Source: a bacterium
Lineage (GTDB): Bacteria; Hinthialibacterota; Hinthialibacteria; Hinthialibacterales; Hinthialibacteraceae
Assembly: GCA_016125385.1 (NCBI GenBank)
Contig: WGLV01000011.1
Location: 1 to 64,000 of the forward strand
Reading direction: 5' to 3'
Length of the DNA stretch: 64,000 bases
The notes under the pieces are model-generated. The model was not told the DNA's origin and searched no databases. It worked only from the letters and a program-made list of their open reading frames with translations. Of the stretch, positions 21,857-36,706 are shown in pieces (positions within the stretch are counted from its first letter, which is position 1; the number at the start of each line of letters is the position of its first letter). The position numbers and the translations under genes are program-made.

Positions 21857-22093
21857 GAGATTCGCTCCTTAAGTGAATAAATAATCACTGATCATATTAT
21901 CATCTTCGGCTGTCTACGTCAAATACTTTAATGAAAAAATGTTCACTGCCGGCGGGCTGGTAATTTTTACCATCCGTTCCTGGTGATTTCGCTGCCTGCT
22001 GACGCGAGCGAAATAAGCTGCATACCATGAATCGGTCTCATCAAAAAAATCTCAATTCAGATGCCGCTAGCCGTCCATCCCGATTCAGACTAT

Positions 22094-22178
22094 CTGATTC
22101 AGACTAGAAGAACGAAACCAATCTCAATCTCACTCACCTCAGCGCCAACAAGCGCGCTTGACTCGCACAACCCAAATA
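22094..22178. repeat. 85-bp direct repeat, copy A
   Basis: Starts CTGATTCAGACTAGAAGAAC and matches copy B (22349-22433) at 76 of 85 positions without gaps. The first 36 bases are identical. A short extra copy of the first dozen bases precedes it (22081-22093). Confidence 0.9.
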
Positions 22179-22249
22179 TACGCCCCAGGCGCTGCCTGTT
22201 CAGCCTTTCAAGGATGGGTGCAACACAGGCGAATACCACCATTTGCTTT

Positions 22250-22285
22250 TTTCGTGTGTTTCGTCTTTTTCGTGTTTTCGTGATT
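22250..22285. repeat. 9-bp periodic repeat (TTTCGTGTN type)
   Basis: TTTCGTGTG, TTTCGTCTT, TTTCGTGTT and a slightly shortened TTCGTGATT follow each other directly. It lies between the two copies of the 85-bp repeat. Confidence 0.75.
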
Positions 22286-22318
22286 CAATCCGTCACCAGT
22301 TTTCCAACAGCTGCTTTT

Positions 22319-22354
22319 ATCCTGTTCATCCTTCCAATCCTGTCCATCCTGATT
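22319..22354. repeat. 9-bp periodic repeat (ATCCTGTCC type)
   Basis: ATCCTGTTC, ATCCTTCCA, ATCCTGTCC and ATCCTGATT run in register and lead directly into copy B of the 85-bp repeat. Confidence 0.75.
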
Positions 22355-22433
22355 CAGACTAGAAGAACGAAACCAATCTCAATCGCACTCGCTTCAGCGC
22401 CAACGAGCGCGCTCGATACGTACAACCTAAATA
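22349..22433. repeat. 85-bp direct repeat, copy B
   Basis: Second copy of the element at 22094-22178, at an offset of 255 bases, with nine substitutions concentrated in the second half. Confidence 0.9.
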
Positions 22434-22533
22434 CTCGGCGGCGGACACTGTCCCCATCCTGCCCCTGCGTGGTATAGTAAATGGTTCGCGTTGAAATCGC
22501 CGCGCGGCGTAATCCGTCATCGGGGGAGATTCC

Positions 22534-23862
22534 ATGAGCAAGCCATCCACGTCCGTCTCACGCCGATCGTTCATCAAGCGCGCTTCCGCTCTGGCCGCCG
22601 CCGCCAGCGCCCCGCTCGTATTACCCTCCCGCGTATTGGGACTCGGAAAAGAAACCCCGCCCAGTGAACAGATTACTCTCGGCGTGATCGGAACCGGCGA
22701 CCACGGCGTCAATCGCAACATCAAGCGTTTTCTCACCGAACCGGATAACCGCATCCTCGCGGTCTGCGACGTCGACCGCTCGCGGCGGCTGGGCGCGAAA
22801 AGCCTGATCGAAGAGCGCTACGCGGAAACGCTGCGTAAGGGATCGTACAAAGGGTGCCGCGATTACAATGACTTTCGCGACGTGCTCGCCCGAAAAGATA
22901 TCGACGCCGTCATGGTGGCGACGCCCGACCACTGGCACGTCATCATCAGCGTGATGGCCGCCAAAGCGGGCAAGGACGTGATGTGCGAAAAGCCGCTCTC
23001 GCTGACGGTGAAAGAAGGGCGCATTCTGGCTGACGCGATCAAGAAGCACGGCCGAGTGTTTCAAACCGCGACTGAAAACCGATCCGTGCCTGAGTATCAC
23101 CGCATGGCCGAGCTGGTGCGAAACGGACGCATCGGTAAAGTGAAAGAGGTACACGTCTTTCTGCCCAGCGGTTATTCGATTCAGGAAGCCAGTATGGAGA
23201 CGCAAGACCCGCCGGATGGATTCGACTACGACATGTGGCTGGGGCAGGCGCCGGAAGCGCCCTACTGTCCGGCCCGATGCCATTGGAACTTCCGCTGGAT
23301 CCTCGACTACTCGGGCGGAATGCTCACCGACTGGGGCGCCCACCTGATCGATATCGCCCAGTGGGGGCTCGATACCGAACACACCGGCCCCATCGAAGCC
23401 GATGGCCGCGGTGTTTTCCCCAAAGAAGGCCTGTATAACGCCGCCACGCGCTTCATCATCGAATATCTGTACGCCAACGGCGCGACGCTGACCGTTACCT
23501 CAAAAGAACCGGGGCTGCGCTTTATCGGGACGGACGGCTGGATCGGCAACGAAGGCTGGCGCGGTCCGTTGCAAGCCGAACCCAGGTCGATTCTTGACGA
23601 GGTCATCGGTCCGGATGAAACCCATCTCTATACCTGCGAGGGAGGCGAACAGCGTAACTTCCTCGATTGCGTCAAATCGCGCGATCTCTGTTACGCGCCC
23701 GCCGAGGTAGGCCACCGCACCATCACCATCGCCCATATCGGACATATCTCGATGCAGTTGGGGCGCCGGTTGAAATGGAACCCCGATAAAGAAGAATTCA
23801 TCGGCGATCCCCCCGCTAACTGGATGCTGTCACGGCCGATGCGCGAACCCTGGGCTTTGTGA
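22534..23862 (+). CDS. Tat-exported Gfo/Idh/MocA family oxidoreductase
   Basis: A 442-residue protein with a Tat leader (SRRSFIKRASALAAAASAP) and a Rossmann domain (LGVIGTGDHGVNR). Motifs ATPDHWHVI and CEKPLSLT are intact. The C-terminal domain includes DYSGGMLTDWGAHLIDIAQWG, a signature shared with the paralogue at 31685-33028 ([21 protein letters not shown]), so these two form a subgroup. GGGGGAG sits eight bases before the ATG. The substrate is unknown, but a periplasmic sugar or glycoside is likely. It is monocistronic with its own terminator. Confidence 0.92.
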   Translation: MSKPSTSVSRRSFIKRASALAAAASAPLVLPSRVLGLGKETPPSEQITLGVIGTGDHGVNRNIKRFLTEPDNRILAVCDVDRSRRLGAKSLIEERYAETLRKGSYKGCRDYNDFRDVLARKDIDAVMVATPDHWHVIISVMAAKAGKDVMCEKPLSLTVKEGRILADAIKKHGRVFQTATENRSVPEYHRMAELVRNGRIGKVKEVHVFLPSGYSIQEASMETQDPPDGFDYDMWLGQAPEAPYCPARCHWNFRWILDYSGGMLTDWGAHLIDIAQWGLDTEHTGPIEADGRGVFPKEGLYNAATRFIIEYLYANGATLTVTSKEPGLRFIGTDGWIGNEGWRGPLQAEPRSILDEVIGPDETHLYTCEGGEQRNFLDCVKSRDLCYAPAEVGHRTITIAHIGHISMQLGRRLKWNPDKEEFIGDPPANWMLSRPMREPWAL

Positions 23863-27133: not shown

Positions 27134-27391
27134 TTACACGGTTTCGGATTCTTTGACGATGGTGGGTTTGGCCTTGGCGGGGACTTCTTCTTTCAGCGAG
27201 GCGAGCACTTTCTGCGAATACATCTCGGTGAATCCGCACAAGCCGCAAACCACCAGCAGGTAGGGCTCTTCGGGGGGGCGGATGATGCCCCGCTTGTTGC
27301 GGTTGCGCACGCACACCTCTTCGGTCATGAACGAGCGTCCACGGCATTTGGGGCACTGGTAATTCGCGAAGAGTTTTTGCGGGCCGGTCAT
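27134..27391 (-). CDS. Small zinc-ribbon protein
   Basis: An 85-residue protein with two CxxC knuckles (YQCPKCRG and VVCGLCGF) separated by a basic stretch (CVRNRNKRGI), a typical zinc ribbon, followed by a Lys/Glu/Pro-rich tail. Such proteins are often nucleic-acid binding or subunits of larger complexes. Family unknown. The ATG at 27391 has only a poor Shine-Dalgarno. A TACAAT -10-like box (27399-27404 on the minus strand) lies so close that the transcript could start at or next to the ATG. It is followed by 100 non-coding bases and the HpcH aldolase gene. Confidence 0.7.
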   Translation of the reverse strand: MTGPQKLFANYQCPKCRGRSFMTEEVCVRNRNKRGIIRPPEEPYLLVVCGLCGFTEMYSQKVLASLKEEVPAKAKPTIVKESETV

Positions 27392-27547: not shown

Positions 27548-28081
27548 TTATTTGGTGAAATCGCCTTCGATCTTGCTGAATCCGATCAGTTTGCTGTTCC
27601 AGATCACGGTTTTCAGGCTGCTGGGCAGGTAGTCTTCAGAAAACTCGACGGCGGTGTGGTCGCTCAGCGAAAGGCCGGTTTCAGCCTTGCCGTCCTGTTC
27701 GAAATTTTTCACGTAGACGTCGCCGCCCATCAGGTTTTTCCCGACCGATTTGAGCTTCAGAATAAACAACTTGGGCTCGTCGCCATCCGATTTCAGAACG
27801 ACAACCAGAGAGCGGACGCCGTCCACCATGGGGGTGTAGTAAAATTTTTCCAGTTTGGCTTCGCCATCGTCCACCGATGCTTTACCGGTCACCCAGCCGT
27901 CCGTATCGATGTTGATCTCAAGCTGATAGTCGATTGAATCGACGCCTTCATACTGGGTCATAAACCAGGAGACGCCCTTGCCCGCCCAGGTGAGGGGCAG
28001 TTCGGGTTCCTGTTGAGCCAGGCAGGGCGCGCTCAGCGCCAGAAGCAGTGCGAACGTGCAGAATGCTGATTTCAGACTCAT
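27548..28081 (-). CDS. Secreted hypothetical protein, 177 residues
   Basis: A Sec signal peptide (MSLKSAFCTFALLLALSAPCLAQ) precedes a beta-rich domain of ~150 residues, with alternating strands such as YQLEINIDTDGWVTGKASV, RSLVVVLKSDG and LFILKLKSVG. It resembles lipocalin- or calycin-like barrels in pattern only. TGGAGG lies eight bases before the ATG, and a promoter is visible upstream. It is monocistronic with its own terminator. Function unknown. Confidence 0.65.
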   Translation of the reverse strand: MSLKSAFCTFALLLALSAPCLAQQEPELPLTWAGKGVSWFMTQYEGVDSIDYQLEINIDTDGWVTGKASVDDGEAKLEKFYYTPMVDGVRSLVVVLKSDGDEPKLFILKLKSVGKNLMGGDVYVKNFEQDGKAETGLSLSDHTAVEFSEDYLPSSLKTVIWNSKLIGFSKIEGDFTK

Positions 28082-28245: not shown

Positions 28246-31125
28246 TTACTCATTTTGCGAAACCACCGCCTCAAACAGCGTGGGGATGTGGTCTTTGATG
28301 AGGGGAACGAGACGGAAGACGACGGCGCGGGCGTCTTCAGGAAGGTCCTTAAGCGGCGCGGGATAACGGGTGGGGTACGATCCCGTCCCCTTACCCGCCA
28401 CGGCGGCGTTGATGAAGACGCGGGTTCCTTCGGGCGCTGACTCCCAGCCGATGTTTCCCCGCCAGGTTACGATTCCCAGTCCGTATCCGTGCTCGCCCAT
28501 CAGCGCGAGAAGTTGTACGTTGGCGCGGTTGCCCTCGGTAAGCCGGTCAATCGGCGTCAGTGGAAAAAAAGAATGCAGGTTGAGATGGTCTTTGCCGGGG
28601 TAGGAGGGGTAGGGCCCCTCGCCCAGCCAGCCCGCGCGGTTCAGCGTGGGCGGAACGGTGAACGACAGCCCCGCCTCCGAGCACGAATCCCATTCATCGC
28701 CGGGCTGAAGTATACAGCGCACATCGAGATATCCCCACGGTGAAGTCAGCACGTCGATTTGAGCCGGTAACGCGCGGGTTGCGCTTTCGGGCGCGGAAGC
28801 GACGACGAGCGTCTTGATCTCGATATCCTTGACCCGGCGATCGACGTTGCGGTTCAACGGTTGCAGCACCGAAAGCAGCCGGGGGCCGCTCTGGGCGCTC
28901 CCCTCGGCGAAAGCGGCTTCCGGCGGCGTCAGCGACCGCCCCACGCGAATCTGCGGGCCGTCGGCGATCAGCCGGGTGTTGCCCTCCCGCGCGAACAAAA
29001 ACCACGCGGCGTTGGTCAGGCTGGCGTGAAAGATAAAGTCACGGTGTTCGACGAGCGTCTCTTCGCTGTTGGTGGTGACCTTCCAGGCGGGGTCCCAGCG
29101 GAGATCGCTCAGGCGCATGATAAAGTTCTTTCGCCAGTCGTCGGGCTTGAGCCAGACGGTGTGTTCGTATATCACGCGGCCTTCACGCAGAAATTGCAGC
29201 GCGGCGTGATATTCGGCGTTGGGGTCGGGTTTGTTGAACGTGGGGCGAACCGCGAGTTGCATCGACTGGCGCGGCGGCAAATCGACCAGCATGTCTCCCT
29301 GCTCGATGGAGCGTCCGTTTTCGGCGAGACTCCAGCGGCACTCCAGATCGCGCAGATTGGTAAAGTCGTACTCATTGCGCAAGGTCAGTTCAATGCTGCG
29401 GCCGGGGCGCCAGTCGGCTTCTGATTCAGCGATCTGAACAGGCGACAGAGCGCGGCGGACTTCATACGAATCCGTTTGCGGCGCCCGGTTCAGATCGAGC
29501 AGGCCGTCATGACCGAACGCCCGGCGCCGCATCGCGGTGGAATCGGTCGACTCGGCGGGCGGCCAGTCGCGTTGAAACGCGCCCGAGTCAGTACAGAGAT
29601 CGGCGAACTGTTGCAGAAACCCGCCGCTGAGGTCGGCGCCCGCGCGCGCCAGCGCCCAGAAATCAGCCGCGCCTTCCATGCAATCCGCCGCGGCGGGCAT
29701 CAGGTTCAGCCCCAGCACGGGCCGCGGCGCGCTGAGCAGGCGGCGCCATTCCGGCAACGGAGGGTCGATCACGCCGAGCACGTCAACGTGATCCGGAAAC
29801 GCCTCTCCGGAAGACAGCGGCGCGGCCAATAGCCGCCCGGCGAGCGCCTCGCGATGGCCTCCCATCCATGACGCTCCTGCCGAGCCGGTGAGGCTCTCGG
29901 GATCCACGATCCAGAGAAAGAGACTCGGATGACGCGAAAAAGCGCTTACATACTCGGCGAATCGGTCGGGTGGCGGGGCGAGCGCGACGTAAAGCCCCGC
30001 CCGGTCGCAGAGCGACAGAAACTCATCGGAGGGAGCGCGCCCGGTGACGCACACGGCGTTGAGGTTCATCTCTTTCATCAGGGCGGCGTCGCGGCTGAAT
30101 TCCCGCGCGCCCAGTGCGTACCCTCGCTCCCCATCGAACGGCGTGTAATTGACTCCACGAATTTCGATGGGCGTTCCATCGCAGAAAATCGAAGCGCCGT
30201 CGGTTTGATAATCGATCAGCCCGAAATCGCGTTGAACGCGATGAATCACCTGCCCCCGCTGGCTTAACTCAACCGTCAGCGTGTACAACGCGGGCGATTC
30301 GGCGTTCCACGGGACCGGATTGTCTATAGTGAATTCATGATGCAGAAAGGCGCTTCCGTTTGAGGGAGACAACGCCCGGTTGTCGAGCGAAGCGGCGCGA
30401 TCTCCGGAGGGGTTTTTCAGTGAAAGAGAAACGGAGCATCCATCTTCATCGCCGGGCAGATCGAAATAGGCGTCCACCGAGACGGAAAACGACGACACGC
30501 CCCCCCGCGAAGTTTGAATGCTGACGCGGTCGATGGCCAGGCGCGGCGTTGAATACAATGTGACGGCGCCGTCGATTCCGCCGAGCCGCCACCCGGGGCG
30601 TTGAGCGTCCTTTTCACGCCAGACCTTCATCGCGGCAAGATGCGCACCGCTCGTCAGGCGATCGGTTAACTCAAAGGTTTGAGGTAAATCGCCCGCCCAA
30701 TCGCCACCGATACGCTGGCCATCGATCCATAGCGCATAGAGTTCCGATACTCGCTCGATCCTGAGAAACACGCGGCGGTCCTGCCAGTTCGCGGGAACCG
30801 TCACCTCCTTGCGATACAACCCCACGCCCGAAGGCGCATCGCCCCATGCGGGCGGCTCGGCGCCCGTGAGTTCCCAATCCGAAGGCGCGGCGATCGCGTT
30901 CCAGCTGGAGTCATCGTACCCCGGTTGGGCGAATGCGTCTGAATCGGTCGGCGCTTCCACCAATTGAAAACGCCAATCGCCGTTCAGCGAGATCGACCAG
31001 CGCGCCTCATCGCCGGGCGGGGGTGCCGCCGCCGCGTAAAGCGTGGCGAGACAAAACAGCGGAATGAGCGGGATTCGAAAACGGTTCACATTTAAATAAC
31101 GTGCGTCGTGTAATGGATGAAACAT
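28246..31125 (-). CDS. GH2 (LacZ-type) family protein with altered active site
   Basis: A 959-residue secreted protein with a hydrophobic leader ending near APPPGDEARW. Domains in order are a GH2 sugar-binding jelly roll (about 40-200), an Ig-like domain (about 200-305), a TIM barrel (about 305-520) and a C-terminal beta-galactosidase small-chain-like domain (AGWLGEGPYPSYPGKD). In the barrel the acid/base region reads HPSLFLWIVDPES, keeping the Glu but not the preceding Asn. The nucleophile region aligns without gaps to LacZ ILCEYAHAMGN yet reads VLGLNLMPAAAD: Glu is replaced by Asn (codon 29704-29706) and His by Pro. It is therefore probably a non-catalytic sugar-binding protein. The start is tentative (ATG 31125, weak ribosome site). 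Confidence 0.85.
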   Translation of the reverse strand: MFHPLHDARYLNVNRFRIPLIPLFCLATLYAAAAPPPGDEARWSISLNGDWRFQLVEAPTDSDAFAQPGYDDSSWNAIAAPSDWELTGAEPPAWGDAPSGVGLYRKEVTVPANWQDRRVFLRIERVSELYALWIDGQRIGGDWAGDLPQTFELTDRLTSGAHLAAMKVWREKDAQRPGWRLGGIDGAVTLYSTPRLAIDRVSIQTSRGGVSSFSVSVDAYFDLPGDEDGCSVSLSLKNPSGDRAASLDNRALSPSNGSAFLHHEFTIDNPVPWNAESPALYTLTVELSQRGQVIHRVQRDFGLIDYQTDGASIFCDGTPIEIRGVNYTPFDGERGYALGAREFSRDAALMKEMNLNAVCVTGRAPSDEFLSLCDRAGLYVALAPPPDRFAEYVSAFSRHPSLFLWIVDPESLTGSAGASWMGGHREALAGRLLAAPLSSGEAFPDHVDVLGVIDPPLPEWRRLLSAPRPVLGLNLMPAAADCMEGAADFWALARAGADLSGGFLQQFADLCTDSGAFQRDWPPAESTDSTAMRRRAFGHDGLLDLNRAPQTDSYEVRRALSPVQIAESEADWRPGRSIELTLRNEYDFTNLRDLECRWSLAENGRSIEQGDMLVDLPPRQSMQLAVRPTFNKPDPNAEYHAALQFLREGRVIYEHTVWLKPDDWRKNFIMRLSDLRWDPAWKVTTNSEETLVEHRDFIFHASLTNAAWFLFAREGNTRLIADGPQIRVGRSLTPPEAAFAEGSAQSGPRLLSVLQPLNRNVDRRVKDIEIKTLVVASAPESATRALPAQIDVLTSPWGYLDVRCILQPGDEWDSCSEAGLSFTVPPTLNRAGWLGEGPYPSYPGKDHLNLHSFFPLTPIDRLTEGNRANVQLLALMGEHGYGLGIVTWRGNIGWESAPEGTRVFINAAVAGKGTGSYPTRYPAPLKDLPEDARAVVFRLVPLIKDHIPTLFEAVVSQNE

Positions 31126-31162: not shown

Positions 31163-31480
31163 TCACTGGATGGTATCAAATACCTGGAGTTTTTTGAAAT
31201 AGGGTTTGTATTTGCCCACGAAGGCCACGTGGCGGGGATCGATCTGGTAGGCGTCATGCCCCGCTGAGTCGTCCAGCACGACGATCAGGCCGAGATCGTA
31301 TGAATTATCGACCACGTCGCGCGGCGTCCCCGCCGGTTTGCCCGCCCAGATGGATCGCACGCCAGGGATGGCGCCCAGATCGGTCAGACAGTCTTCCTGC
31401 ATTTTCTGTTTGAGTTCATCGCTTGCTTCATCATTCAGCCAGAAAAAAACCATGTGGACAAACGCGGATGACTGAGACAT
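31163..31480 (-). CDS. Dabb (stress-responsive A/B barrel) domain protein
   Basis: A 105-residue single-domain protein of the dimeric alpha/beta-barrel family: FVHMVFFWLNDEASDELKQ at the start, a GVRSIWAGKPAGTPRDVVDNSYDLGLIV core, and DPRHVAFVGKYKPYFKKLQVFD at the end. Family members range from stress proteins to small decarboxylases or cyclases. No specific reaction can be inferred. AAAGGAG lies ten bases before the ATG at 31480. It is immediately upstream of the GH2 gene on the same strand and may be co-transcribed with it. Confidence 0.88.
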   Translation of the reverse strand: MSQSSAFVHMVFFWLNDEASDELKQKMQEDCLTDLGAIPGVRSIWAGKPAGTPRDVVDNSYDLGLIVVLDDSAGHDAYQIDPRHVAFVGKYKPYFKKLQVFDTIQ

Positions 31481-31684: not shown

Positions 31685-33028
31685 ATGAAGCGGACCTTCC
31701 AGCGCAGATCGTTTTTACGCGGAACGGCGGCCGGGCTGGCGTGGAGCCTCGCCCCGGTCTTCGTTCCAGCGCGAATATTCGCGGCGCCGGCGCCCAGCGA
31801 CCAGATCGTCGTGGGCTGGATCGGCATCGGCTCGCGCGGCAATCAGCTATTGGGTGAAAACCGGCGCAAAGAAACCATGCGGATCGCGGCGCTGGCTGAT
31901 GTGGACCGCGTTCATCTGTTGCGCGCCCGCCAGATCATTGAAGATCAATATGGCATCGAGCGCCCCGAGCCCAAAATCGTCAACGGCTGGCGGCTTGAAC
32001 AACAACCCGTGCCGGCGGGCGCGGTGGCGGCGTATAACGACTACCGCCGGCTGCTCGACCGGGGCGATCTCGACGGCGTGGTCTGCGCCGTGCCCGATCA
32101 CTGGCACGCCAAAATCTATATCGATGCGTTGGACGCCGGTCTCGATGTGTACGGAGAAAAACCGCTGAGCCTGACTATCAACCAGGGGCGTCATATCGCC
32201 CGCAAGGTGGAAGAAACAGGGCGCGTCTTTCAAACCGGGAGCCAGCAACGCTCCATGAGCACTTTCCGCACTGCGGTGAATTACGTGCGCAACGGCGCGC
32301 TGGGCGAAATAAAGAGCGTCCGCTGTAACATCGGCGGAGGCCGCGCCGGCGAAATGCCTCCTGATGAACCCGCGCCCCCCAATCTGGATTGGGAGATGTG
32401 GCTGGGCCCGGCGCCGTTGGTTCCGTACAATCCCCGGCGATGTCACTTGCGCTTCCGCTCGTTTTACGATTATTCAGGCGGCAACGTCACCGACTGGGGC
32501 GCCCATCACTGCGACATCGCGCAATGGGGCTTGGGCATGGATGGAACCGGTCCGCGCAAAATTGAAGGGGGCGGAACCTTCAACCCCGCGCCATTCAACA
32601 CGCTGGCTGATTTTGAATTCACTTATACCTATGGAAACGGCGTTCCGGTCACGCTGGTCAGCGGTGGAAAAAACGGCGTCACCTTTACCGGCGAAAAGGG
32701 AGAAATATTCGTCTCTCGTGACGAAGTCGCCTCCACGCCGGACGCCATTCTCAAAGAACCGCTGCCCGCCAGCGCGGTCCGGGTTGAAGAGAGCAACGAT
32801 CATTTTCAGAACTGGCTCGATTGTATCAAATCGCGCAACACCCCCATCGCCAGTGCTGAAATCGGACATCGCTCCATTACCGTACCCCACCTGTGCAACA
32901 TCGCCGCTCGCGTAGGACGCACGTTGGAATGGAATCCAGACGAGGAATTGTTCGTCAACGATCCGGAAGCGAACGCTCACCTCAATCGGGATGAACGCGC
33001 GCCGTATTACCACATGGCGGGTTATTAA
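31685..33028 (+). CDS. Tat-exported Gfo/Idh/MocA family oxidoreductase
   Basis: A 447-residue protein with a Tat leader (QRRSFLRGTAAGLAWSLAP), a Rossmann domain (VGWIGIGSRGNQ), AVPDHWHAK and a GEKPLSL motif. The C-terminal part (DYSGGNVTDWGAHHCDIAQWG, then NHFQNWLDCIKSR) is very close to the paralogue at 22534-23862. GGAGGAG precedes the ATG by nine bases. It is divergent from the Dabb/GH2 genes, which supports a role in periplasmic sugar metabolism. The substrate is not known. Confidence 0.92.
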   Translation: MKRTFQRRSFLRGTAAGLAWSLAPVFVPARIFAAPAPSDQIVVGWIGIGSRGNQLLGENRRKETMRIAALADVDRVHLLRARQIIEDQYGIERPEPKIVNGWRLEQQPVPAGAVAAYNDYRRLLDRGDLDGVVCAVPDHWHAKIYIDALDAGLDVYGEKPLSLTINQGRHIARKVEETGRVFQTGSQQRSMSTFRTAVNYVRNGALGEIKSVRCNIGGGRAGEMPPDEPAPPNLDWEMWLGPAPLVPYNPRRCHLRFRSFYDYSGGNVTDWGAHHCDIAQWGLGMDGTGPRKIEGGGTFNPAPFNTLADFEFTYTYGNGVPVTLVSGGKNGVTFTGEKGEIFVSRDEVASTPDAILKEPLPASAVRVEESNDHFQNWLDCIKSRNTPIASAEIGHRSITVPHLCNIAARVGRTLEWNPDEELFVNDPEANAHLNRDERAPYYHMAGY

Positions 33029-34963: not shown

Positions 34964-35190
34964 TTTTTAGCCAGATCGTTTAATGGAATGGCCTCGCGCC
35001 GGCCGGGCTGATTAAATCGCATGGTCATGGGATGAAATCCGTCGAGGCGGGCGTACAGAGTGTATAAGCCCGGCGCCTGAAATCGCAACCCCGCTGGACT
35101 CATGCCACGTCGCGGGCGCGGCGCGTTCGATTCGCGCTGGCCAATCCGCGTGAAATGTGGTATTGAATGAGTCGATGATTCCATGAGATG
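34960..35190 (-). pseudogene. Possible frameshifted remnant upstream of cysQ
   Basis: The last 47 codons (34960-35103) read MSPAGLRFQAPGLYTLYARL and on to PLNDLAKK. The stop overlaps the cysQ ATG by four bases, as in a real operon. Upstream, the most coding-like frame is a different one (FNTTFHADWPARIERAAPAT, then WHESSG). Removing one G from the GGGG run near 35093 would join the two into one protein. No start codon is found for the joined frame before the sulfatase start region, so it looks like the 3' end of a decayed gene. Family unknown; the pattern suggests an Ig-like or beta-sandwich tail. Confidence 0.35.
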
Positions 35191-35200
35191 GAGAGCCATG

Positions 35201-36706
35201 ATGCAACGACGCCGCTTTTTGAAAACCGCGCTGGCGCTGGGCGCCGCGCCCGCCCTGATTCGCAACGCCGCCGCGCGCAAGCGGCCCAACATCCTCTACG
35301 CGATGTCCGACGATCAATCATATCCTCACGCCAGCGCGTACGGCGCGCGATTCGTTAACACGCCCGCCTTCGACCGGGCGGCGAGCGAGGGATGCCTTTT
35401 TACCAACGCATTCGCCGCTGCTCCGCAATGCTCGCCCAACCGCGCCGCCATCCTCACCGGACGGCACATCTGGCAGCTGCGCGAAGCAGGCACGCACAGC
35501 AGCTATTTTCCCAAAGATATCACCGTGTTTCCCGATCTGCTTGAGCGGACGGGGTATCACATCGGCTATACCGCCAAGGGATGGGGGCCGGGAAACTGGC
35601 AGGACGCGGGGCGTGACCGCAACCCCGCCGGCCCGGCGTATAACGCGCGCAAGATGAAAGAAGCGCCCGAAGGCGTCAATAAAAACGATTACGCGGGCAA
35701 TTTTGAAGACTTCCTCAAGCAGCGCCCCAAAGACGCTCCGTTCTACTTCTGGTACGGCGGCACCGAACCGCATCGCGGTTACAGTAAGGGCATCGGGCTG
35801 GCGTCGGGTAAAAAACTCGAAGACGTCGACGTCCCGCCGTTTCTGCCCGATACCGAAGAGGTCCGAAGCGATCTGCTCGATTACGCGTTTGAAATTGAAT
35901 GGTTTGACATGCACCTGGCCCGCATGATGGAGACGCTGGAAAAACGTGGCGAGCTCGACGATACGCTGATCGTCGTGACCAGCGATAACGGCATGCCTTT
36001 CCCCGGCGCGAAGGCGACCTTGTACGAATACGGCGTCCACATGCCTCTGGCGATCCGCTGGGCGAATGGAGCGCGGGCGGGGGCGGAGATCGGCGATCTG
36101 GTTTCGTTCATCGATTTCGCGCCGGTTTTTCTCGAAGCGGCGGGCGTTGACATCCCCGGGTCGATAACGGGTCGAAGTTTTCTTTCCACACTGCAAGGCG
36201 GCTCGCAATCGCCGCGCGAATGCGTTTTCGCGGGGCGCGAGCGCCACTCGCACTCACGCTTCGATAACCTGGGGTATCCGGCGCGTTGCGTCCGCGCCGC
36301 TACGAGGCTGTATATCCGTAACCTGAAGCCGGACCGCTGGCTGGCGGGCGATCCGCCTCGCTATCACGATATCGACGACGGCCCCACAAAAGCATTCATG
36401 ATCGACCGTCGGAACGATGACGCGGTCCGCGCGCTTTTCGCGCATGGCTACGGCGAACATCCCGCCGAGGAATTATATGACGTCGCCGCCGACCCCGGTT
36501 GCCTGAACAATCTGGCGGGAGACCCCGCGCATGAGGCTGAACGGAAGCGTCTGTTTGAAACGCTCTGGGCGGAGATGGAGCGCACCGGCGATCCGCGCGC
36601 GGTTGGCGATGAGGTGTTCGACAGTTACCCACGATTTGGAAAGATGCGTCCCGAGCTGGGCGGCTTCGCCGAGCAAGGAAAGTATAACCCGAAATATCAG
36701 AGATAA
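35201..36706 (+). CDS. Tat-exported sulfatase
   Basis: A 501-residue arylsulfatase-family protein. A Tat leader (QRRRFLKTALALGAAPAL) is followed by RPNILYAMSDDQ, which holds the metal-binding Asp pair, and CSPNRAAILTG. There Cys77 of the CxPxR motif would be converted to formylglycine by an FGE-type enzyme. SDNGMPFPGAKATLYEYGVHMPLAIRW supplies further metal ligands and the substrate lysine/arginine region. It should desulfate a polysaccharide or glycoside in the periplasm. The start at 35201 fits GGAGAG five bases upstream. An in-frame ATG at 35183 is less likely. It is monocistronic. Confidence 0.93.
   Translation: MQRRRFLKTALALGAAPALIRNAAARKRPNILYAMSDDQSYPHASAYGARFVNTPAFDRAASEGCLFTNAFAAAPQCSPNRAAILTGRHIWQLREAGTHSSYFPKDITVFPDLLERTGYHIGYTAKGWGPGNWQDAGRDRNPAGPAYNARKMKEAPEGVNKNDYAGNFEDFLKQRPKDAPFYFWYGGTEPHRGYSKGIGLASGKKLEDVDVPPFLPDTEEVRSDLLDYAFEIEWFDMHLARMMETLEKRGELDDTLIVVTSDNGMPFPGAKATLYEYGVHMPLAIRWANGARAGAEIGDLVSFIDFAPVFLEAAGVDIPGSITGRSFLSTLQGGSQSPRECVFAGRERHSHSRFDNLGYPARCVRAATRLYIRNLKPDRWLAGDPPRYHDIDDGPTKAFMIDRRNDDAVRALFAHGYGEHPAEELYDVAADPGCLNNLAGDPAHEAERKRLFETLWAEMERTGDPRAVGDEVFDSYPRFGKMRPELGGFAEQGKYNPKYQR

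Follow-up and report, generated by a model that had tools for sequence, protein, structure and literature searches.

A conserved family of LacZ-type GH2 proteins predicted to lack glycosidase activity, with constraint concentrated in the C-terminal domains

What does a LacZ-type GH2 protein do once its catalytic nucleophile is gone? The question is raised by a gene in the stretch of bacterial DNA analysed here (64,000 nucleotides in full, referred to as the window), the product of which we call pseudo-GH2. The initial annotation of this gene, made from sequence, reported an asparagine in place of the nucleophile glutamate and suggested that the protein may serve in binding or sensing. A survey of GH2 describes the nucleophile as an 'invariant Glu in loop 7' across subfamilies (PMC12243196), whereas the pseudo-GH2 family would represent a GH2 lineage that has dispensed with this residue for good and is conserved nonetheless. 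Searches of the open-access PMC literature turned up neither an inactive but conserved GH2 family nor a GH2 pseudoenzyme.

Fold and active-site residues of the window copy

The pseudo-GH2 reading frame lies on the minus strand, with its ATG at 31125, its stop at 28246 and a further in-frame ATG upstream at 31257. Its domains and key residues are listed in Table 1 together with two neighbouring genes. Structure prediction, which the initial annotation had proposed as a check, yields the whole five-domain LacZ fold in an AlphaFold model built on 14 homologues (pLDDT 80, pTM 0.80), with low confidence for residues 1-41 and a pLDDT mostly above 80 in domain 5. The best PDB matches to the model are all LacZ-type beta-galactosidases (TM 0.74-0.78 by query) and include T. 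maritima 6sd0 (TM 0.78) and E. coli LacZ. Pfam matches above cut-off comprise GH2_N, GH2, the barrel family GH2_C (residues 312-380 only) and LacZ_4. Bgal_small_N is sub-threshold in the window copy, and domain 5 (Bgal_small) gives weak matches in all six members of the family described below, with a best E-value of 8e-7. By both Pfam and the model, the jelly-roll, Ig-like and TIM-barrel domains follow each other in GH2 order, placing the protein within GH2 as a sequence and fold family. With the LacZ-type beta-galactosidases (E. coli LacZ; T. maritima 6sd0; PF02837/PF00703/PF02836/PF16353/PF02929) it shares the five domains and their order, sequence homology and the best structural match. None of the NCBIfam LacZ equivalog models reaches its curated cut-off, the best scoring 205.8 bits against a required 999.

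Table 1. Position of pseudo-GH2, its parts and the two adjacent cluster genes in the window
Feature	Coordinates	Strand	Remarks
pseudo-GH2 gene, 959 aa, LacZ-type five-domain protein without catalytic nucleophile	28246..31125	minus	
Probable Sec signal peptide, residues 1-38, hydrophobic core IPLIPLFCLATLYAAAA	31012..31125	minus	by inspection
Domain 1, jelly-roll sugar-binding, residues 45-194	30544..30993	minus	absent in 3/6 family members
Domain 2, Ig-like, residues 198-303	30217..30534	minus	Pfam
Domain 3, degenerate TIM barrel, residues 312-559, shortened beta3-beta4 loop	29449..30192	minus	
Domain 4, LacZ_4, residues 560-660	29146..29448	minus	conserved in family
Domain 5, Bgal_small-like super-sandwich, residues 661-955	28261..29145	minus	most conserved part of the family
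Glu410, aligned with LacZ acid/base Glu461	29896..29898	minus	kept in window copy only, within family
Asn474, aligned with LacZ nucleophile Glu537	codon 29704..29706	minus	
Small secreted protein, 177 aa, predicted all-beta, apparent signal peptide	27548..28081	minus	directly downstream of pseudo-GH2
Zn-ribbon protein, Zn_ribbon_13/DUF2082-like	27134..27391	minus	downstream of small gene

Asn474 occupies the column of E. coli LacZ Glu537 in a block that aligns without gaps. All homologues compared, whether or not they are active, share a length of 32 residues over P469-G501, and the nucleophile column is therefore unambiguous and independent of alignment choices. An alignment slip at this position was ruled out, the block being ungapped in all sequences. 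The initial reading of an asparagine for the nucleophile glutamate is thus correct, as are the replacement of a metal-site histidine (His540 is Pro) and the loss of the WDW that follows it (Trp568 is Gln). The acid/base context is also retained as first described, with Glu410 in the motif WIVDPES, a PE rather than an NE motif. At the positions of Asp201, His357, His391, Tyr503, His540 and Trp568 the window copy carries P, T, G, D, P and Q, and LacZ metal-site positions 416 and 418 are deleted. The window copy accordingly has neither the pocket residues nor the metal site that mark LacZ-type beta-galactosidases.

Catalytic columns in the bacterial family and its relatives

A search of related genomes returned one orthologue in each of the five other genera sampled from the same bacterial family, at 36-42% identity to the window copy. 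A profile of the C-terminal half confirmed all six sequences (E < 1e-190), which come from six genera, have uninterrupted frames (785-1006 aa) and form a monophyletic group in the tree (support 100/100). The genomes with named records are MAGs, three of the orthologue contigs being deposited as Candidatus Omnitrophota MAGs, and six members are few for conservation statistics.

The nucleophile column reads N, D, D, A, S and G across the six members and the acid/base column E, R, T, C, Q and G, so that no member has carboxylates at both. GH2 enzymes carry a Glu nucleophile at the end of beta7 and an acid/base Glu in an NE motif; the former is missing from all six orthologues, with Asn474 in its place here, and the latter has a counterpart only in the window copy, as PE. 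The initial annotation had considered that this copy might be a lone mutant. This was ruled out by the orthologues in five genera, none of the six members having Glu at the nucleophile; distant sisters in other phyla do have it. The test proposed in the initial annotation, in which conservation of the asparagine would support a distinct non-hydrolytic family, failed as worded, and the variability of the position excludes an Asn-based family. The conserved feature is the lack of Glu and not the presence of Asn, and at the level of sequence this is the stronger evidence for a dead site.

The surroundings of the catalytic residues are similarly altered. Nearly all sugar-pocket residues (His357, His391, Tyr503, His540 and Trp568) are replaced in the family, with replacements that differ between members and stray survivals of an aligned Tyr at 503 in L004, His at 391 in L006 and Trp at 568 in L003. 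The active-site loops are degenerate across the six members, and the beta3-beta4 loop, which contributes to the LacZ metal site, ranges from 25 (the window copy) to 56 residues among the six members, compared with 42 in the active sisters described below. As a control, PF02836 was used to find further GH2 barrels in the six genomes, and 22 were aligned. All of them keep both glutamates, so the nucleophile loss is specific to one orthologous group.

Glycosidase activity in which water, Asn or Asp stands in for the Glu nucleophile is very unlikely. Asp is present in two members, and substrate-assisted mechanisms occur in other GH families, but in the two Asp-bearing members the acid/base column is occupied by Arg or Thr. 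Other members show Ala, Ser or Gly in place of the nucleophile, leaving no common residue fit for the role. Judging from these residues, we are highly confident that the protein would be incapable of GH2-type catalysis, and the data as a whole give the same confidence that it has been maintained as a pseudoenzyme. The first proposal, of a GH2 protein that is large, secreted and non-hydrolytic, is well supported, secretion being judged by inspection.

Five sister sequences (L059-L063) from KSB1, Phycisphaerae and Prolixibacteraceae MAGs and one further bacterium are similar to the family over their full length at 25-27% identity, and share with it the domain 5 motifs WLGDGPYPxYP and GNR. These sisters are presumably active. 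Unlike pseudo-GH2, these five, which include sequences from KSB1, Planctomycetota and Bacteroidota, retain Glu461, Glu537, Asn460, His391, Tyr503, His540 and Trp568.

Three full-length LacZ-type homologues from a sister bacterial family of the same order (L007-L009, in G008, G007 and G006) resemble pseudo-GH2 in the absence of the nucleophile, which is Ala, but differ in keeping acid/base Glu461, Asn460, Asp201, His540, Trp568 and all five domains. Their dN/dS of ~0.08 indicates purifying selection. Since the tree places them outside the group formed by the window family and the active sisters, on a branch whose support of 92/97 is not conclusive, they perhaps represent a second, partial and independent loss of the nucleophile. 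They could be lectins or enzymes with an external nucleophile. Their residue pattern is that of engineered glycosynthases, occurring naturally. A further LacZ-like sequence (L086, G133:C99) has Asp at the acid/base position and Glu at the nucleophile, with His357, His391, Tyr503, His540 and Trp568 replaced, and is perhaps another degenerate GH2 line.

Loss of domain 1 and the distribution of constraint

The statement that the protein keeps all five domains holds for the window copy and not for its family, in which domain 1 is missing from L002, L003 and L006. In these three members only ~130-290 bases separate the start from the next gene, and misannotated starts hiding the domain were ruled out on the grounds that this upstream space is too short. 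In L006 the first strand, LSGEWRF, is retained and joined directly to domain 2. The deletion junctions differ among the three members, consistent with separate deletions, and the tree requires three events if regain is excluded, with some inner family branches weakly supported. The deletions are thus apparently independent. In LacZ, domain 1 provides substrate contacts, and its repeated loss therefore counts against use of the old sugar pocket.

This bears on another reading, which we regard as unlikely: that pseudo-GH2, like the chi-lectins, has given up hydrolysis and employs the LacZ sugar pocket to sense or bind glycans. Such a reading would agree with the retained fold, seen in the model and its PDB matches, with the presence of domain 1 and Glu410 in the window copy, and with L007-L009, which combine an Ala nucleophile with Asp201, Asn460, Glu461, His540 and Trp568. 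A galactose-binding lectin would be expected to have a pocket conserved across its family, but here the pocket columns vary: each of His357, His391, Tyr503, His540 and Trp568 has been substituted in almost every member, and by different residues. In addition, the metal-site loop has changed and domain 1 is missing from half of the members.

Domains 4 and 5 are the most conserved part of the pseudo-GH2 family, and the barrel is among its least conserved domains. Mean identity is 0.33 in the barrel and 0.42 in domain 5; the corresponding values are 0.55 and 0.34 for the active sisters and, for canonical LacZ, 0.54 and 0.30. The family has 18 invariant columns in the barrel and 54 in domain 5, as opposed to 74 and 39 in the active sisters (Fisher p 9e-8, for columns that are not independent). 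With any one pseudo-GH2 member left out, the barrel-to-domain-5 ratio is 0.32-0.52; it is 1.9 in the active sisters and never below 2.2 in 200 random sets of five canonical LacZ sequences. The family consequently differs from LacZ-type beta-galactosidases both in the loss of the nucleophile, most pocket residues, the metal site and the active-site loops and in a shift of conservation from the barrel to domains 4-5.

Three barrel residues, Tyr327, Glu484 and Phe507, do not vary among the six members but do among the active sisters. They would suit a protein that is still an enzyme and uses other residues, located either in the barrel (Glu484, Tyr327 and the shared Asp509) or in domain 5, where Arg671, Asp674, Arg718, Asp791, Asp801, Arg803, Glu817 and Arg867 are invariant and charged; the barrel also still folds in the model. 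We nevertheless consider a new active site improbable. The low conservation of the barrel relative to other domains of the family has no counterpart in any active GH2 set tested. Galactose mutarotases of a fold related to domain 5 use His, but domain 5 has no invariant His in the six members. No Pfam family for aldose epimerases, which would correspond to a galactose mutarotase-like domain 5, is among the matches of the six members.

A decaying pseudogene or an assembly error could account for a degenerate active site in a MAG sequence, but is scarcely credible given six intact frames in six genera, 54 invariant domain 5 columns, agreement between independent assemblies and the dN/dS of ~0.08 in L007-L009.

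Overall, pseudo-GH2 is probably a secreted, non-hydrolytic pseudo-glycosidase kept for binding or scaffolding via domains 4-5, and not a lectin using the old pocket. A LacZ-type GH2 protein would have lost double-displacement catalysis in the ancestor of the bacterial family and been retained for a non-hydrolytic role. Because constraint has shifted and domain 1 is dispensable, we infer that the function now rests on domains 4-5. The C-terminal beta unit, consisting of an Ig-like domain and a large beta super-sandwich, would form the working surface and may bind a glycan or a partner protein, with the barrel possibly acting as a spacer. The first suggestion, binding or sensing, is still the best guess, although the unconserved sugar pocket of LacZ would not be the site, constraint now lying on domains 4-5.

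Glycosidase folds without catalysis have precedents. Klotho is a GH1 pseudo-glycosidase that keeps its fold, has lost catalytic function and has a binding or regulatory role shown or proposed. The same applies to heparanase-2 (PMC12406646) and to beetle polygalacturonase pseudoenzymes (PMC6549527). In contrast to pseudo-GH2, which is fixed in a whole bacterial family, all of these are eukaryotic and belong to other GH families. The sequences compared here represent several stages, namely active sisters, loss of the nucleophile only, full degeneration and domain loss, and could serve as a test bed for how an enzyme turns into a binding protein. They also carry a warning, in that automatic annotation of pseudo-GH2 as a beta-galactosidase would mislead.

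Neighbouring genes and the small secreted protein

The gene for the small secreted protein adjoins pseudo-GH2 in four of the six genera and is non-adjacent in two, and the Zn-ribbon gene is part of the cluster in five of six. Other window neighbours that were tested (Dabb, HpcH/HpaI, BNR) are not common to the genera of the family. The cluster genes are separated by gaps of ~160 bases in the window, and a scan for promoters and terminators around the cluster gave nothing above chance.

The small protein matches no Pfam or NCBIfam family, and among 290 genomes its own family occurs in this bacterial family only, plus one genome from another family of the class. Its model is all-beta with a pLDDT of 86. 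A structure search returned weak barrel matches only (NHBA and TbpB barrels, nitrobindin, streptavidin; E 0.003 or worse, TM by query <0.45), too weak for a family assignment, and none was made.

Gene order makes the small protein the first candidate for a partner of pseudo-GH2. Because the two genes stay side by side in four of six genera, their products may together make up a binding or scaffold complex in the periplasm or at the surface. More tentatively, the two could constitute a new secreted two-protein binding or sensing module, in which a pseudo-glycosidase with its site moved to the C-terminal beta domains acts together with the small beta protein; we regard this as conceivable but rather doubtful. 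In three genera paralogues of the small protein precede an ECF sigma factor and an anti-sigma-like membrane protein, an arrangement that would be in keeping with envelope signalling.

Paralogues of the small protein found elsewhere adjoin other genes and not pseudo-GH2. In three genera (L107:3773-5782, L109:7023-9028 and L110:7015-8931) the gene for a paralogue stands directly ahead of genes for an ECF sigma factor and for a predicted membrane protein that is possibly anti-sigma-like, and the arrangement possibly represents an envelope signalling unit. Another paralogue, at L075:934-2184, is fused to a 3-keto-disaccharide hydrolase domain (PF06439) and adjoins a Gfo/Idh/MocA oxidoreductase gene.

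Within the window, an open reading frame at 22061-22477 contains two near-identical repeats (IQTRRTKPISI...APTSALD) and is probably a non-coding repeat rather than a gene. Near pseudo-GH2, the segments 22534-23862, 31685-33028 and 35183-36706 encode two Gfo/Idh/MocA oxidoreductase-type proteins and one sulfatase-like protein, all three with Tat-like N-termini.
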